Below, piece after piece: positions 3,282 through 53,470 of a stretch of 53,470 nucleotides of DNA. The notes under the pieces were generated by a model. It saw only the letters and a program-made list of their open reading frames with translations, had not been told where the DNA came from and did not search any database. Origin of the DNA: a virus. The stretch's first letter is position 1, and every line of letters begins with the position of its first letter. A program made the translations under genes and the position numbers. The stretch covers positions 1-53,470 of IMG/VR virus record IMGVR_UViG_3300023301_000001; one strand, written 5' to 3'.

Positions 3282-3755
3282 ATGGCTACTACCGCCAAGA
3301 ACAAGATCAAGACCGATGCGGCAGGACGCCGCGTGAAGACCAAGGGCGAGGCGCCTCTGGCCTACTACTTGGACAAGCCCACCAGCGACGTGTCCGCCCG
3401 CTTTGCCGCATTCGTGCTGGAGCAGACCGGCCTGGAATGCGACCCTCAGGTGCTGCAGTTGTCGCACACCCTCCGCTCGCGCTTCCAGCAGGACCCGCGT
3501 GAGCAGGATCTCCGCGCCAGCCGCAAGACCGAGTTGGAGGATGTCGCCGAGGCGAAGGCCGAGCGCAAGACCGCTCGCGAGGAGAAGCGAGCCGCCAAGG
3601 CCGCCAAGCCCGCAAAGGCAGAGGCCAAGACGGCTCCCTCCAAGGCAGCCGCCAAGCCCGCAACCAAGAAGGCCTCCGCCAAGGCTCCGGCGAAGAAGGC
3701 GACCGCTACGCGCCGCCGCCCCGCCGCCAAGCCCGCAGTCCAGGAGGAGTTCTAG
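3282..3755 (+). CDS. Histone H1-like basic DNA-binding protein
   Basis: 157 residues. The first ~90 form a compact region (LAYYLDKPTSDVSARFAAFVLEQTG...), followed by a Glu/Arg/Lys helix. From about residue 95 there is a low-complexity Lys/Ala/Pro tail with AKKA, APAKKA and ATKK units, like the C-terminal tails of histone H1 and actinobacterial HupB. Inferred role: coating or compacting phage DNA, or tethering a partner to DNA. Good ribosome site (AAGGAG) upstream and its own promoter candidate. A strong hairpin follows, so it may be a separately transcribed, abundant protein. The N-terminal domain is not assigned to a family. Confidence 0.75.
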   Translation: MATTAKNKIKTDAAGRRVKTKGEAPLAYYLDKPTSDVSARFAAFVLEQTGLECDPQVLQLSHTLRSRFQQDPREQDLRASRKTELEDVAEAKAERKTAREEKRAAKAAKPAKAEAKTAPSKAAAKPATKKASAKAPAKKATATRRRPAAKPAVQEEF

Positions 3756-5123: not shown

Positions 5124-5959
5124 TGGCAGTACCAGAACAGATTGGTAGCATTGGCCAAAACGCCAACTACATGCATATGCTGATCGTCGGCGACTCGGGA
5201 TTTGGCAAGACGGTATTTGCCGGCACCGCGCAGAATGCGCTATTCCTGACGACAGACCCGGAAGGAACTACATCAGCGATGATGATGGGGTCGACCGCGA
5301 AGGAATGGAAGATTGGGCATTGGCGCGAACTCAACGAGGCATTCCGATACCTCCGCGACGGCGGCATTGAGGAGATGGGCCTGGAGTGGCTGATCATCGA
5401 CAACATCTCTGCGGCTCAGAACTTCGGGATGGAGGCGACGATGGAATTGGCAAGGGAGAACAACTCCAAACTTGATGAGTTCATCTCCTCTCAGCAGGAT
5501 TATCTCCGGAGCCAGAACATGCTCCGCCAGATGGTCAAGACCTTCCAAGACCTTCCGGTCAATATCATTTGGACCTCATGGCAAGCGGTCCAAGAGAATC
5601 CGGACACCGGCGAGATCTACTTTGCGCCCGCTATTCACGGGCAGAAGGGCTCGCTGGCGCAGGAAGTCGCAGGGTACATGAACGTGGTCGGCTACGGCGA
5701 GGTGGTGAAGGACACCAAAGGCAACGAGGTCCGCCGCATTTGGTTCACGTTCAACGACGCATTCCGGGGCAAGGATCGCTTTGTCTGCCTCGGCGCATAC
5801 CAGGACAGGCTAACGGTTCCGAAGATGCACCGAATGGTTGAGGAAGCGAAGAAGGCCGCCATGTCCAGCAAGAAGGGATCCACCGGCGCCAAGGCCGGTA
5901 GGCCCGCAGTCAAGAAGGCTCCGGCAACACGCCGGACCGCTACAAGGAAGAAGGCATAA
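5123..5959 (+). CDS. Sak4-like RecA-family ATPase (recombinase)
   Basis: 278 residues. Walker A GDSGFGKT at residues 23-30 and Walker B WLIIDN near 90-94 in a short RecA-like core, typical of the phage Sak4 / AAA_24 single-strand annealing ATPases. A ~35-residue Lys/Ala/Thr/Arg tail (SSKKGSTGAKAG... ATRRTATRKKA) follows the core and resembles the tail of the H1-like protein at 3282. It lies between the Cas4-like nuclease and the SSB-like gene; Sak4 genes are commonly paired with SSB genes. Inferred role: ATP-stimulated strand annealing. Start by TGATG overlap. Confidence 0.85.
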   Translation: MAVPEQIGSIGQNANYMHMLIVGDSGFGKTVFAGTAQNALFLTTDPEGTTSAMMMGSTAKEWKIGHWRELNEAFRYLRDGGIEEMGLEWLIIDNISAAQNFGMEATMELARENNSKLDEFISSQQDYLRSQNMLRQMVKTFQDLPVNIIWTSWQAVQENPDTGEIYFAPAIHGQKGSLAQEVAGYMNVVGYGEVVKDTKGNEVRRIWFTFNDAFRGKDRFVCLGAYQDRLTVPKMHRMVEEAKKAAMSSKKGSTGAKAGRPAVKKAPATRRTATRKKA

Positions 5960-6909
5960 TGCCCAGCATCAAGAGGTCCAACGTCAAGGCCGAAGAAGTC
6001 AAGACTGGCTTTGAGGCGTATGACGGTCCTACTCCGACCAAGCGTGGGATGTACCGCGCGATCATCAAGCAGTTCAACTTCAAGGAGTTCCGCTCCGGCC
6101 GCACCGGCTTCTCCATCCTCGTGGAGTTGGAAGCGGCGGCGGGAGATCCGCACAACCACGAGCAGTTTGACGGCTTCCCGATCTGGAGCAACATCGTGTT
6201 CGGCGAGGAGGAAGCGCTCATGGCGCGGGAGTCCAACTTGTACGCCGCACTCGGCGCTGGCGACGGGCCGACGATCACCCATGATGAAGGCAACCCCACG
6301 ACCGGCGTGAAGGTCAAGAAGGTCGGCGGCAAGGACCCGATTGACAAGGCCGTATCGGTCGACATCAAGCAAGGCAAGTATGAGGGTGAAGTCCGGCCCG
6401 AGGTCGACGGCATCTACAAGATCGCCGGAGCCGCCTCTGCCGGGAAGGCGAAGGCAACCGCCGACGCTCCCGAGCCCGAAGAGGAGGACACAGCCGAAGA
6501 TGCCGGAGCCCGCGAGCGCGAGTTGAAGGCGCTCAAGGTCTCTGATCTCCGCGAGATCGCCGATGAACTCGGTCTGGAGACCGACGGCGTGAAGAAGGCC
6601 GACCTGATCAGCAGCATCCTTGAGGAGGAGTTTGGCGCCGAGTTTGCCGAGCCCTCCGAGGATGACGAGGATGAGGAGGATGAGGACGAGGAGGACGAGG
6701 AGGAAGATGACGAGGAGGATGAGGAAGATGACGAGGAGGATGAAGAGGCAGAACGCCGCGCCGACCTCGCCGGAGTCTCTCGCATCGAACTCAAGAAGGT
6801 CCTGAAGGAACTGGACCCTGACGCGAAGGTTCTGAAGAAGATGACCGATGAGGACATCGTGGACGCGATCATCGCCGAGGAATTTGAGAGCGATGAGCCT
6901 CCCTTCTAA
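5959..6909 (+). CDS. SSB-like protein with SAP segment and long acidic run
   Basis: 316 residues. Residues 1-150 are beta-rich (GMYRAIIKQFNFKEF... FSILVELEAAAGDPHNHEQF... IWSNIVFGEE) and fit an OB-fold single-strand binder of the kind next to Sak4. Residues about 192-225 (ALKVSDLREIADELGLET... ADLISSILEEE) match a SAP/Rho-N-like helix-extended-helix. Residues about 230-268 (nt 6649-6760) are an almost unbroken Asp/Glu run. A second SAP-like segment (RIELKKVLKELDPDAKVLKKM) ends the protein. Acidic tails on SSBs recruit partners; here the neighbour Sak4-like protein has a basic tail. Family assignment is by fold pattern and context. Confidence 0.72.
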   Translation: MPSIKRSNVKAEEVKTGFEAYDGPTPTKRGMYRAIIKQFNFKEFRSGRTGFSILVELEAAAGDPHNHEQFDGFPIWSNIVFGEEEALMARESNLYAALGAGDGPTITHDEGNPTTGVKVKKVGGKDPIDKAVSVDIKQGKYEGEVRPEVDGIYKIAGAASAGKAKATADAPEPEEEDTAEDAGARERELKALKVSDLREIADELGLETDGVKKADLISSILEEEFGAEFAEPSEDDEDEEDEDEEDEEEDDEEDEEDDEEDEEAERRADLAGVSRIELKKVLKELDPDAKVLKKMTDEDIVDAIIAEEFESDEPPF

Positions 6910-7090: not shown

Positions 7091-7250
7091 TAGGGGTCAG
7101 CACAAGGTCACACAATCGACACAATATTCACACAATCGCTCTCCAATTTAACACAATCGACTTCTCCACTTCACACAATAAATGTGAGATGCCCTACACA
7201 ATCGGGGCTGTGAATTGTGTGAAGATTGTGTGGAATGTGTGAGTGTGAAA
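7091..7250. repeat. Phased ACACAAT repeat array, copy 1 (operator or origin candidate)
   Basis: Direct copies of ACACAAT start at 7110, 7119, 7130, 7151, 7173 and 7196. Inverted copies (ATTGTGT/AATGTGT) start at 7214, 7225 and 7234. Spacings are 9, 11, 21, 22 and 23, then 11 and 9, so the copies face the same side of the helix at one or two turns. The array is preceded by TAGGGGTCA and followed by GTGAAAG. Bases 7215-7241 are identical to 29533-29559. Short, phased, oriented repeats are typical of multi-site protein binding (iterons, operators). It lies just upstream of the primase-helicase. Function is inferred. Confidence 0.8.
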
Positions 7251-7332
7251 GATCTCGTGAGAATCTCGGAGGGTGCTAGGCGGGCTAGGGTAAAGAGCCC
7301 CGGAACAAGGAGAGGAAAGACTATATCAACAG

Positions 7333-7374
7333 TTTCTTCTTCTTCTTCTTCTGTTCTCCCTATATAGGTGTTTT
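7333..7374 (+). promoter_or_regulatory. TTC-triplet tract and TATATA promoter candidate, copy 1
   Basis: Six TTC triplets (about 7333-7351) are followed by TATATAGGTGTTTT at 7361-7374. The same order occurs at 29661-29692. TATATA is a good -10 box; no standard -35 is obvious, so activation by a protein bound to the upstream repeats is plausible. The leader up to the start codon carries GGTAGGGGA and then AAGGAG. Confidence 0.5.
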
Positions 7375-7425
7375 TGGTGGGTAGGGGATTTGAACAAGGC
7401 TTTGCAAGGCAAACAAGGAGACAAG

Positions 7426-10281
7426 GTGGCTGACAAGAAGTACAAGCCCGATACCGTGCGCGCAGCATTCAGCAAGTACGCGGTCGGCGATGAGAATGAC
7501 GGCGAGCAGAGGATGTTCTGTCCGATCTGCGAGAGCCCGGACTCAAGCAAGAGCCCGAGCGCGTCGATGAATGCTGACTCCGGAGTTTGGAATTGCCTAA
7601 AGGGCAACCACGGCGGTTCCATCGCATGGCTCGTGAGAGACTTGACCAATGAGCGCGGATTCAACATCCGTGCGGAAGCGATGCGAGGAAGGCACTTAGA
7701 CCAGACTTTCAGATCCGCCGCTGTCACCCGGCTCAACTCGGGCTCGCCGCTCCCGGATCCGGCGCAGATCTCAAAGTGGACCGAGGCTCTGATGGGCAAC
7801 AAGAAGGTCCTGGGCTTGATGATGGAGACTCGCGGGCTTGACCGGCGAACAATCATTGAATGGGAACTCGGCTGGGATGGCTCGCGCTACACCATCCCGG
7901 TACGCGACATCGGCGGCGAGTTGCTCAACGTCCGGCGCTACAAATTGAACGCCGGAGTGACGGACAAAATGCTCAACCTTCCCGGTCACGGCACAGCGCA
8001 GATATATCGCCCCGACATCCTCGCCAGCAACGAGGAGATCGTGATCACCGAAGGCGAGATGGATTGCATCATCCTCAACCAGTACGGCATCCCTGCGGTG
8101 ACGCATACGGCGGGCGCGGCGACCTTTCGACCTAACTGGGCGGGCATGTTCATCGGCAAGACGGTCTGGGTGGCGTATGACAATGATGACGCGGGCCGGA
8201 AGGGCTCCAAGAAGGTGGAGCAGATCCTCACCGCGTTTGCCGAGCGCGTGTACATCATGGAGATCCCGATACCTGTGAAGGGAGCCGATGTCACGGACTT
8301 CCTCCACAAGGAGGGGCACTCCGCTTCCGACTTCCGAGCGCTTATGCAAGTTGCACAGGAATCGGCATCGACCGGCTCGCTGAAGTCCGCCCCGCTCGCC
8401 GAGGCCGGAGAGCGGTTCAACCTCCAGTCATCGATGTCCCAAGCGAACCAAGCCAAGACCATGGAACTGATTGTGTCGATCTCCGGGAAGCAAGCCGAGC
8501 CCTACACCGCCCCAAAACGGATAACGGCGACGTGTGACATGTCCAAAGGAGCCGCCTGTGAGATGTGCCCCATTGCGGCGCGTAACGGGCAAGCCGAGAT
8601 TGATGTGAGAGAAGATGATGATCAGATTCTCCGCTTTGTCGATGTAACGGAACAAAGGCATAAGCAATTGCTCAGAGACATCACCGGCGCTCGCTGCTCC
8701 GACCGCGTGGAGTTTGAGGTTGATGAGAACTATCACATTGAGGAATTGCTTGTTCAGCCGAGCGTTGATGACCGCCAAGACGGCGAGACACAGCAGCCTA
8801 TCCGCCGCACCGCATTCTCGGTCTCCACCCACGCATCGACGGTCAACAGCAAGGTCCGGCTTGTCGGCAAGAACGTCTCAGACCCCAAGAGCGGGCGGCT
8901 GCGTTGGATGTCGTGGGTCAACCAGCCGGTGGAACTTGACATTGACAAGTTCACGCTCACTCCGGGACTCCGCGAGCGCCTGGAGACCTTTCAGCCAGTC
9001 GGCGGTCAATCGCCGCTAGACAAGGCGCTGGAGATCGCGAACGACATGGCGAGTAACGTCACGCATATCTATGGCCGTGATCTCCTCCACGTCGGCTATG
9101 ACCTTGTCTGGCATTCGCCGGTCTCATTCAAGATCCACGACATGACTATCCCCAAGGGCTGGCTGGAAATGCTCGTGGTTGGCGACACAAGAACGGGCAA
9201 GAGCGAGGCCGCCACCCGGCTCGCGAAGCACTACCGCTCCGGGATTGTCCAGTCGTGTGAGGGCATGTCCTTCCCGGGCCTTGTTGGAGGAGTCCAGCAA
9301 GTCGACGGGCGATGGCACATGACCTGGGGCGTGATCCCCATGAATGACCGGCGCTTGGTGGTCCTGGATGAGGTCTCGGGACTCAAGGAGAAGAATGTCA
9401 TTGAACAGATGTCTTCCATCCGCTCCTCGGGCATCGCGCAGGTCACCAAGATCGCCGCCGAGGAGACATCCGCCCGGACCCGGCTCGTCTGGATCGCCAA
9501 CCCCGCTGACGGGTCGATGATCCGCGACTCGCCGACCGCAGGCATGGGTGCTATGCGAACCGTCGTGGAGCACGCCGAGGACATCGCGCGTTTTGACTTT
9601 GTGATGGCAACCGCCAAGGGCGACGTTGACACGAGACTGATCAACGCTTCCTTCTCCGAGGTCCACAACCCGTCATACTCCTCAGAGGATTGCGAGGCGC
9701 TCGCGAAGTGGGCTTGGTCGCTCACTCGGGATGACGTCGTGATCTCTGACGCCGCCGCAGATGCCGCTGTCAAAGCGGCTATCAACCTCGGCGAGCGGTA
9801 CATGTCAGACCCGCCTCTCATCCAGTCTGAAAATGCCCGGTTCAAGGTCTTGCGAGTGGCAGCGGCGCTCGCGGCTCGCACCTTCTCAGTCTCCAAGCGG
9901 GGCAAACTCCAAGTAGGCCGGGAGCACGTCCATGATGCCGTCCGCTTCTTGGACATGATCTACGGCGAGAGCGCGATGGGTTACGCCACCGCCTCGGGCC
10001 GCTACTTGGAGAATGAGCGGCGAGCGGTAAGCAAGAAGGAGCAAGCCCGGGCCTACCTCCGCGAGCACCAGGATGACATCCTGCTAACACTCCGGATGGT
10101 CGGCGGCAACAACTTCCGAACTCGCGACTTTGCAGACTTTGGAGGGATGGATATTGCCGATGCGAAGCAGGTTGTTCACACGCTCCTGAAGTGGCAGTTG
10201 GTCTACACCAAGACGCGCGGCGACATCGGCATGAGCCCGATCCTCCAAGACGTCATCCGCGAACTGGAGATGGATGAGTAG
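7426..10281 (+). CDS. Bifunctional primase / MCM-like AAA+ helicase
   Basis: 951 residues. N-terminal CHC2-type zinc finger (FCPICESP near 31-38, WNCLKGNHGG near 56-65). Toprim domain about 205-270 with ITEGEMDC and the YDNDDAGRKG acidic motif. A middle region has cysteine pairs (CDMSKGAACEMCPI). The AAA+ domain has Walker A GDTRTGKS near 586 and Walker B LVVLDEVSG near 645. It is followed by GIAQVTKIAAEE and SARTRLVWIANP, which closely follow the MCM pre-sensor/sensor-1 pattern. A C-terminal winged-helix-like part follows. Inferred role: primer synthesis and fork unwinding in one chain. GTG at 7426 is chosen for its AAGGAG ribosome site; a TTG at 7390 is the alternative. A phased-repeat region lies immediately upstream. 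Confidence 0.87.
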   Translation: MADKKYKPDTVRAAFSKYAVGDENDGEQRMFCPICESPDSSKSPSASMNADSGVWNCLKGNHGGSIAWLVRDLTNERGFNIRAEAMRGRHLDQTFRSAAVTRLNSGSPLPDPAQISKWTEALMGNKKVLGLMMETRGLDRRTIIEWELGWDGSRYTIPVRDIGGELLNVRRYKLNAGVTDKMLNLPGHGTAQIYRPDILASNEEIVITEGEMDCIILNQYGIPAVTHTAGAATFRPNWAGMFIGKTVWVAYDNDDAGRKGSKKVEQILTAFAERVYIMEIPIPVKGADVTDFLHKEGHSASDFRALMQVAQESASTGSLKSAPLAEAGERFNLQSSMSQANQAKTMELIVSISGKQAEPYTAPKRITATCDMSKGAACEMCPIAARNGQAEIDVREDDDQILRFVDVTEQRHKQLLRDITGARCSDRVEFEVDENYHIEELLVQPSVDDRQDGETQQPIRRTAFSVSTHASTVNSKVRLVGKNVSDPKSGRLRWMSWVNQPVELDIDKFTLTPGLRERLETFQPVGGQSPLDKALEIANDMASNVTHIYGRDLLHVGYDLVWHSPVSFKIHDMTIPKGWLEMLVVGDTRTGKSEAATRLAKHYRSGIVQSCEGMSFPGLVGGVQQVDGRWHMTWGVIPMNDRRLVVLDEVSGLKEKNVIEQMSSIRSSGIAQVTKIAAEETSARTRLVWIANPADGSMIRDSPTAGMGAMRTVVEHAEDIARFDFVMATAKGDVDTRLINASFSEVHNPSYSSEDCEALAKWAWSLTRDDVVISDAAADAAVKAAINLGERYMSDPPLIQSENARFKVLRVAAALAARTFSVSKRGKLQVGREHVHDAVRFLDMIYGESAMGYATASGRYLENERRAVSKKEQARAYLREHQDDILLTLRMVGGNNFRTRDFADFGGMDIADAKQVVHTLLKWQLVYTKTRGDIGMSPILQDVIRELEMDE

Positions 10282-29301: not shown

Positions 29302-29410
29302 ATCCATTTTGTTTCGGCGGAATGGGTTCACACTAATTCACCAGAAATCCTGTGCATTTCCCCATAGCGCTGCAATAAAAGCAGCCCGCGCCGGAGCCGG
29401 GCAAGGGTCT

Positions 29411-29565
29411 AGGGGTCAACACACATCCACACATTCCACACATTTTCACACAATCGTTCCTCAGATCTCACACAATATTGTGGGGGAACTCACACAATAA
29501 TGGAAAAGGCCCTCAGGAAACTCACACATTTATTGTGTGAAGATTGTGTGGAATGTGTGGCCGTG
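29411..29565. repeat. Phased ACACAAT repeat array, copy 2
   Basis: ACACA(A/T)T-type copies start at about 29421 (variant), 29429, 29438, 29448, 29470, 29492 and 29524. Inverted copies start at 29532, 29543 and 29552. Spacings of 8, 9, 10, 22, 22 and 32, then 11 and 9, again follow the helical turn. CACAATATTGTG at 29471-29482 is a perfect palindrome made of two copies. The array is preceded by TAGGGGTCA, as in copy 1, and 29533-29559 is identical to 7215-7241. Bases 29302-29410 hold no gene; a short GCTGC/GCAGC hairpin lies near 29370-29390. Confidence 0.8.
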
Positions 29566-29660
29566 AAAGTTCGGGAGGATCTCGGGGAGCCGGCAGGCGG
29601 GCGTATCGGAAACAACCCGGGAAATTGTAAGGTAAAAGGTATATAAGCAGTTTGTATAGT

Positions 29661-29692
29661 CTTCTTCTTCTTCTTCTGTATATAGGTGTTTT
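29661..29692 (+). promoter_or_regulatory. TTC-triplet tract and TATATA promoter candidate, copy 2
   Basis: CTTCTTCTTCTTCTTCTG at 29661-29678 runs straight into TATATAGGTGTTTT at 29679-29692, the same two elements as at 7333-7374. Other -10-like words (TATATAAG at 29640, TATAGT at 29655) lie upstream. A strong GAGGAGGGGG ribosome site follows at 29696-29705. Confidence 0.5.
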
Positions 29693-29710
29693 GTTGAGGA
29701 GGGGGTCAAT

Positions 29711-29734
29711 GTGAATTCTCCGGTAGACTCGTGA
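29711..29734 (+). CDS. Possible 7-codon leader peptide coupled to 29731
   Basis: GTG 29711 lies 5 bases after GAGGAGGGGG and encodes MNSPVDS; its TGA (29732-29734) overlaps the GTG start of the next gene as GTGA. The real ribosome site is thus placed for the leader, while 29731 has none of its own. This makes coupled translation, or attenuation, plausible. Confidence 0.4.
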   Translation: MNSPVDS

Positions 29735-30042
29735 ATATGAAAAGCATCTATGAGGATCTGTTCGGGGTCCGGCATCGCGGTCCGGGTCGACCGGGAACTG
29801 AGACCATGTTCCCGGGTGCTGGGGTATCTCGGCTGATTGCGGATGTCGCTCGGCGACGCGCGTATGCCGTGGTCCATGAGGAGGAGAAGGAGCGTCTGAT
29901 GGAGGTGTTCGCCGTGGAGCGCGAAGTGCTCAAGGCTCGCGGCGTTGAAAGGGTAATGAAGGACATCGGCAAAGGCGCGGAAGTGCCCTTGCCTGGCGAA
30001 GGCAAAGGCGCGGAAGCGTCTGGGCCTGAGAAGGGAGCCTGA
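29731..30042 (+). CDS. Hypothetical protein, 103 aa, first gene of the virion operon
   Basis: GTG 29731 or ATG 29737. N-terminus MNMKSIYEDLFGVRHRGPGRPG, then a helix with VARRRAYAVVHEEEKERL and a C-terminal repeat of GKGAE units. No family recognised. Its place directly before the JAMM-like and terminase genes suggests a role in packaging or early virion assembly, but nothing in the sequence proves this. Confidence 0.65.
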   Translation: MNMKSIYEDLFGVRHRGPGRPGTETMFPGAGVSRLIADVARRRAYAVVHEEEKERLMEVFAVEREVLKARGVERVMKDIGKGAEVPLPGEGKGAEASGPEKGA

Positions 30043-53360: not shown

Positions 53361-53470
53361 TGCCCGGCTACTTTCACTCAGATCTGAACTTGATCACCTT
53401 TGAGCAGGTGGGTGAGTATGAGTACCCCACCACCGACTTCCCGAACAAGCCTCAGGTGTTCTTCATCGGA
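53360..53470 (+). CDS. 5' end of the zinc-ribbon/OB-like gene (continues at base 1)
   Basis: ATG at 53360 (TGATG overlap with the preceding gene) opens the frame MPGYFHSDLNLITFEQVG, which continues without break into 1-828 once the 105-base overlap is collapsed. The full gene is about 311 codons. Confidence 0.88.
   Translation, partial: MPGYFHSDLNLITFEQVGEYEYPTTDFPNKPQVFFIG
53366..53470. repeat. Right copy of 105-bp terminal redundancy
   Basis: Identical to bases 1-105. Collapsing the two copies closes the molecule into a circle of about 53,365 bp and completes one gene, so the window covers the whole genome. Confidence 0.95.

Follow-up and report, generated by a model that had tools for sequence, protein, structure and literature searches.

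Origins of the iteron type, such as those of plasmids and phage lambda, usually occupy a single locus beside the gene for the initiator and are built of direct repeats. The Bacillus phage SPP1, a lytic phage that packages its DNA by the headful route, has two distant origins made of direct repeats and an AT-rich unwinding element, one in its replication genes and one among its late genes, and its initiator at oriR has been proposed to stall forks and start concatemer synthesis (PMC6316719, PMC3485210). Paired loci have also been described in the actinophage RedRock, where two parS loci carry eight direct 8-bp repeats each (PMC7157519). For the Microbacterium phages of cluster EF, the portion of the published description available to us reports lytic phages without repressor or integrase as well as SAS and ESAS motifs, and that portion does not mention the arrays presented below. 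The literature that we found on this phage group describes no replication origin, and we found in it no description of such paired modules.

The window analysed here, 53,470 nucleotides long, is a whole phage genome whose first and last 105 bp are identical and whose main genes all run rightward; with these identical ends (1-105 and 53366-53470), it is the contig of a circular or circularly permuted genome. Its identified proteins include terminase, portal, capsid, primase, Sak4-type recombinase, exonuclease and thymidylate synthase, and the primase is ~70% identical to those of the cluster EF phages (genus Krampusvirus) and 56% identical to that of Arthrobacter phage Wollypog. The virus infects actinobacteria. 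Two modules of similar build lie 22 kb apart, module 1 before the primase/helicase gene and module 2 before the virion block (Table 1). We read module 2 as one of two paired, SPP1-like replication-origin-like modules that double as borders of transcription units, a reading to which we give a probability of about 0.5.

The likeness to SPP1 oriL and oriR, which bind gp38, lies in a lytic, headful-packed phage with two distant, similar elements of repeats plus AT-rich DNA, one in the replication genes and one among the late genes, and in the presence of genes for an exonuclease, a recombinase, an SSB and a Holliday-junction resolvase. In SPP1, however, oriL sits inside gene 38, the boxes are direct repeats and the origins are 12-13 kb apart, whereas here both copies are intergenic, their arms are mirrored and the arrays are separated by 22-24 kb in the window and the EF phages. 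Pfam and PHROGs scans recognised no homologue of gp38, gp39 or DnaB, the helicase here being MCM-like. We do not assign the modules to the SPP1 system, as its initiator, loader and helicase were not recognised in this genome. With iteron-type origins the modules share phased short repeats beside an AT-rich, strand-asymmetric candidate melting element, but the arms are opposed and there are two loci. Like the SAS and ESAS motifs of cluster EF and K phages, they are conserved, intergenic and found in the same phages; those motifs are instead short, located at ribosome-binding sites and present in about ten copies.

The two loci with short-repeat arrays also recall parS-L and parS-R of RedRock-type cluster A mycobacteriophages, and the first-pass annotation had proposed a DNA-bridging or partition-like site. 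On such a reading a ParB-like protein would bind both arrays and pair or segregate genomes. RedRock sets a precedent for this, and arrays of short phased sites would suit ParB, ParR or omega-like proteins; yet the RedRock-type direct repeats flank a parAB cassette in temperate phages, while the present arrays, 22-24 kb apart, flank no par cassette. A scan of the encoded proteins (not every small ORF) turned up no parA, parB, integrase or repressor, and the closest studied relatives are described as lytic and free of integrase and repressor. We consider a centromere very improbable.

Two copies of one module in the window and its relatives

Positions 29533-29559 had been noted in the first pass as identical to 7215-7241; the identity is exact and extends to a maximal repeat of 28 bp (29532-29559 and 7214-7241, the right end of each array), which is one of the two longest repeats in the 53-kb genome once the contig-end repeat is excluded. 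The claimed order of elements also holds, since TAGGGGTCA, array, core, TTC tract and TATATAGGTGTTTT recur in both copies. The distance from TAGGGGTCA to TATATAGG is 270 bp in module 1 and 269 bp in module 2, and that from TAGGGGTCA to the core 131 and 130 bp, so the spacing of elements is held within 1 bp over 270 bp though the bases in between differ. All ten CACACAAT sites of the window fall inside the two modules (shuffles: 0.71 on average, 3 at most), and TATATAGGTGTTTT with up to 2 mismatches has two matches in the window against 0.03 expected. The two copies are 61% alike, more than either resembles the module of any other phage.

That the same module stands twice, ahead of the replication and the structural blocks, is true of relatives as well: the Microbacterium phages AnnaSerena, Sparcetus and MortySmith, and also Wollypog, have long intergenic gaps with a like array at the same two borders. 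Clusters of CACAAT/ATTGTG number exactly two per complete genome in the window, AnnaSerena, Sparcetus and MortySmith, both at the modules, and the Wollypog arrays are more degenerate than those of the Microbacterium phages. IMG/VR contigs L122-L125 and L151 have copy 1, and L125 and L151 also have copy 2. Relatives at 34-41% primase identity lack the copy 1 module upstream of the primase and have coding sequence there instead. Where the exact core occurs elsewhere in IMG/VR, the matching record is a near-identical fragment of this phage, and a genome-contig scan for relatives found none. A DNA search with the copy 2 region gave no match in phages, because conservation is limited to the sites.

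Table 1. Coordinates of both modules and of neighbouring genes in the window
Feature	Position	Strand	Remark
TAGGGGTCA box at which module 2 begins on the left (in relatives, C/TTAGGG box)	29410..29418	+	position conserved in 15 modules
Module 2 site array, mirror symmetric, helically phased	29418..29559	.	conserved in relatives
Module 2 forward CACA[A/T]T-type sites	29430, 29439, 29449, 29471, 29493, 29525
Module 2 reverse ATTGTG/AATGTG sites	29477, 29532, 29543, 29552
GC-rich block between array 2 and AT-rich segment	29587..29618	+	TCGGCTCGGC block with hairpin in relatives; weak in window copy 2
Lowest-stability 80-bp duplex of whole genome, candidate DNA unwinding element	29621..29700	.	includes TTC tract 29660-29677
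TATATAGGTGTTTT, conserved CTATATAG end of module 2	29679..29692	+
TAGACT, -10-like hexamer adjoining first codon of virion-block gene	29724..29729	+	possible leaderless start
First virion-block gene, function not assigned, conserved in cluster EF	29731..30042	+
SSB-like protein preceding array 1, with OB fold, SAP/Rho_N domain and an acidic tail (last residues DEPPF)	5959..6909	+
TAGGGGTCA box of module 1	7091..7099	+
Module 1 site array	7109..7241	.
Module 1 forward sites	7111, 7120, 7131, 7152, 7174, 7197
Module 1 reverse sites	7181, 7214, 7225, 7234
TAGGGT, -10-like hexamer after array 1	7286..7291	+
Second-lowest-stability 80-bp duplex of genome, candidate unwinding element of module 1	7315..7394	.	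TTC tract 7334-7351, TATATAGGTGTTTT 7361-7374
Fusion of a DnaG/TOPRIM primase with an MCM-like AAA+ helicase, following array 1	7390..10281	+	probable real start GTG 7426

Mirror symmetry, phasing and constraint in the arrays

An alignment of 15 modules (window and relatives) gave the general anatomy. From the left, a GC-rich block with C/TTAGGG is followed by forward CACAAT-type sites, reverse ATTGTG-type sites, a TCGGCTCGGC block (in some phages reverse-complementary to the left GC block), then ACTAACT, the purine/pyrimidine tract and finally CTATATAG. The array is a mirror in which CACAAT sites oppose ATTGTG sites. Its phasing is close to 11 bp (R=0.76; the 99.9% null is 0.35, a test that is optimistic with related modules). 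The phased repeats recorded in the first pass are borne out by same-strand spacings that group at 9-11, 20-23 and 32-33 bp, and several modules have a 9-bp and then an 11-bp step inward from both outer ends. Site flanks vary by phage (CACACAAT in the window, CCACAAT in EF), the pattern that co-evolution of one binding protein with all its sites would produce, and because both arrays of a genome have the same site type, a single shared DNA-binding factor is the simplest account, in agreement with the earlier proposal of one regulator for both copies. The TTC tract and the 27-mer, listed there as parts of the module, are present in both window copies and are particular to this phage; relatives retain the site array, ACTAACT and TATATAG, without the TTC triplet as such.

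Further identities for the modules were rejected. The CACAAT sites are unlike the host DnaA box TTNTCCACA by eye and change with the phage, and a DnaA-trio-like reading of the GAA tract fails because the strand of the tract switches between modules. A packaging site would not be expected in two copies, one of them 22 kb away from the terminase genes. Operators or stoperators of an immunity repressor do not fit with proteins scanned in which no repressor or integrase was found, nor with EF relatives that are described as lytic.

Footprinting of copy 2 in ten EF phages found variable positions to be rare in the arms (0 of 35 on the left, 5 of 74 on the right) and frequent at the centre of symmetry (4 of 6). 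The left GC block and TAACTCACTAACTGATC are 12% variable, the flanks 40% upstream and 60% just after the array; in the purine/pyrimidine tract 67% of positions vary, base composition nevertheless being retained. The suggestion that selection acts on the sites is supported by these counts, with the correction that in close relatives nearly all array positions, not the sites alone, are frozen except the symmetry centre.

This pattern bears on a structural explanation, in which the array would form a long hairpin or cruciform, as RNA or DNA, with the inverted sites as its stem. The variation falls at the loop position, in most phages the arrays, taken as single strands, give much stronger folds than their dinucleotide-shuffled versions (z -3 to -9.5), and the spacers of L122, L123 and AnnaSerena copy 2 are complementary beyond the sites. 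Once the shuffles keep the sites and the half-specific composition, however, the excess shrinks to a modest overall level (mean z -1.6), and about half of the modules lack it. A hairpin or cruciform as the main function, which then has only partial support, was rejected; moreover, neither Wollypog array has a stable fold, and Rfam contains no match that would indicate a structured RNA family. A gain in complementarity of this size, which reaches significance in about half of the modules, leaves the mirrored sites rather than a universal stem as the common denominator, and we regard a structured nucleic acid as improbable. A separate GAGGCTG..CAGCCTC hairpin lies after array 2 of AnnaSerena (56492-56548), its stem constant and its loop and length differing among EF phages.

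Duplex stability and promoter signals

Duplex stability was computed from nearest-neighbour energies, with segment sizes of 60, 80 and 100, across the window, AnnaSerena, Sparcetus, MortySmith and Wollypog. The tail of module 2 is the lowest-stability segment and the tail of module 1 the second lowest in all five genomes and at all three sizes, which places beside each array, as in SPP1, an AT-rich candidate unwinding element. The promoter-like D1 repeats of the window are not extreme in stability. Low duplex stability is nonetheless usual for promoters as well; since promoters can be rich in AT too, the module tails give the origin reading support, not proof. An 81-bp promoter-like repeat (TTTTGCAATC..AGAAGATGT..TAG) occurs in four copies (21642, 22204, 23881 and 53097), each preceding a gene in a layout reminiscent of the ESAS/SAS of cluster EF.

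The main rival to paired origins is a shared operator array, in which a phage regulator bound to both arrays would jointly activate or repress the replication-block and virion-block promoters, and the AT-rich tail would serve as core promoter or as unstructured leader. Each module stands at the head of a transcription unit, a rightward gene block, as an operator-promoter would; GC hairpins before the modules in relatives could terminate the upstream unit, TATATAG is similar to a -10 element, and the arrays of one genome share their site type. By inspection of the alignment, most copy 1 modules have a TAGGNT/TAGACT hexamer 29-35 bp past the last ATTGTG-type site, a distance of ~30 bp that suits a promoter. 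In copy 2 modules, on the other hand, TANACT-like hexamers stand beside the first gene, which in the window puts the hexamer ~165 bp away from the array. L122 and L124 have no TANNNT hexamer after the array. A simple sigma70 scan detected no -35/-10 pair around copy 2, and no -35 was found there; the starts just after TATATAGGTGTTTT predicted in the first pass are thus not upheld, the best -10-like hexamers lying elsewhere.

The position of the promoter therefore differs between the copies while the module does not, and this lack of a fixed register between module and promoter weakens a plain operator reading. It fits less well because the promoter-like -10 of copy 2 is ~165 bp beyond the array, across fast-evolving DNA, the stretch directly after the array being 60% variable in EF phages. 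No repressor is reported for cluster EF. We hold a shared operator-promoter to be possible but somewhat doubtful; even as no more than an operator pair, the modules would probably be the sites of master control for the entire genus. A distance of 1-7 nt separates a -10-like TAGACT/TAGAAT from the first codon of the virion-block gene (window 29724-29737; L234:1024-1047), which may indicate a leaderless mRNA.

Proposed paired origins and the proteins around the modules

In favour of origins, module 1 lies between the genes of the SSB-like protein and the primase/MCM helicase. The OB fold of the former has PrgE as its best PDB match (E 1.8e-5), and the latter scores above the Pfam cut-off for MCM and matches DnaG and MCM2 in the PDB. 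Further genes specify a split DNA polymerase III alpha and a RuvC-like resolvase, the resolvase being assigned by its homology to annotated EF genes. Against origins, GC skew at 4-fold sites does not switch at the modules, and the scan of the proteins revealed neither an initiator nor a helicase loader; the same scan (not every small ORF) recognised no sigma factor, ParA/ParB, integrase or repressor.

If the modules are paired origins, a phage-encoded origin-binding protein may coat both array arms in a symmetric complex that opens the adjacent AT-rich element. The opened element could then load the primase/MCM-like helicase, whose gene directly follows copy 1, together with the SSB, whose gene directly precedes it. 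The copy before the replication genes would start early replication, and the copy before the virion genes may serve as another origin or as a barrier to forks, thereby feeding the synthesis of concatemers by recombination, as proposed for SPP1 oriL/oriR; exonuclease, Sak4-type recombinase, SSB and RuvC-like resolvase are all encoded. Array occupancy may additionally set transcription of both blocks. The full scheme, in which a lytic actinophage clade replicates from two mirror-symmetric origins, a phage initiator loads the DnaG-primase/MCM-like helicase and the second origin at the virion-block border couples the switch to concatemer synthesis with late gene expression, is tentative and, taken whole, rather unlikely. 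If the modules are indeed paired origins, they would add a second lineage of two-origin lytic phages, with replication proteins unrelated to those of SPP1, and provide an entry point to MCM-like helicase loading in a bacterial virus as well as testable sequence coordinates in the culturable phages AnnaSerena, Krampus and Wollypog.

A candidate binder of the arrays is the small helical protein at 3282-3755, which has a Lys/Ala-rich disordered tail, resembles nucleoid-associated proteins and occurs in all array-bearing phages checked, though it is weakly present in one array-less relative too; its AlphaFold model has low confidence and no fold match. The SSB-like protein (5959-6909) has a long acidic linker and is annotated as hypothetical in the relatives checked. 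The primase-MCM-like fusion is conserved in Krampusvirus and Wollypog, where its GenBank label is only DNA primase or primase/helicase.
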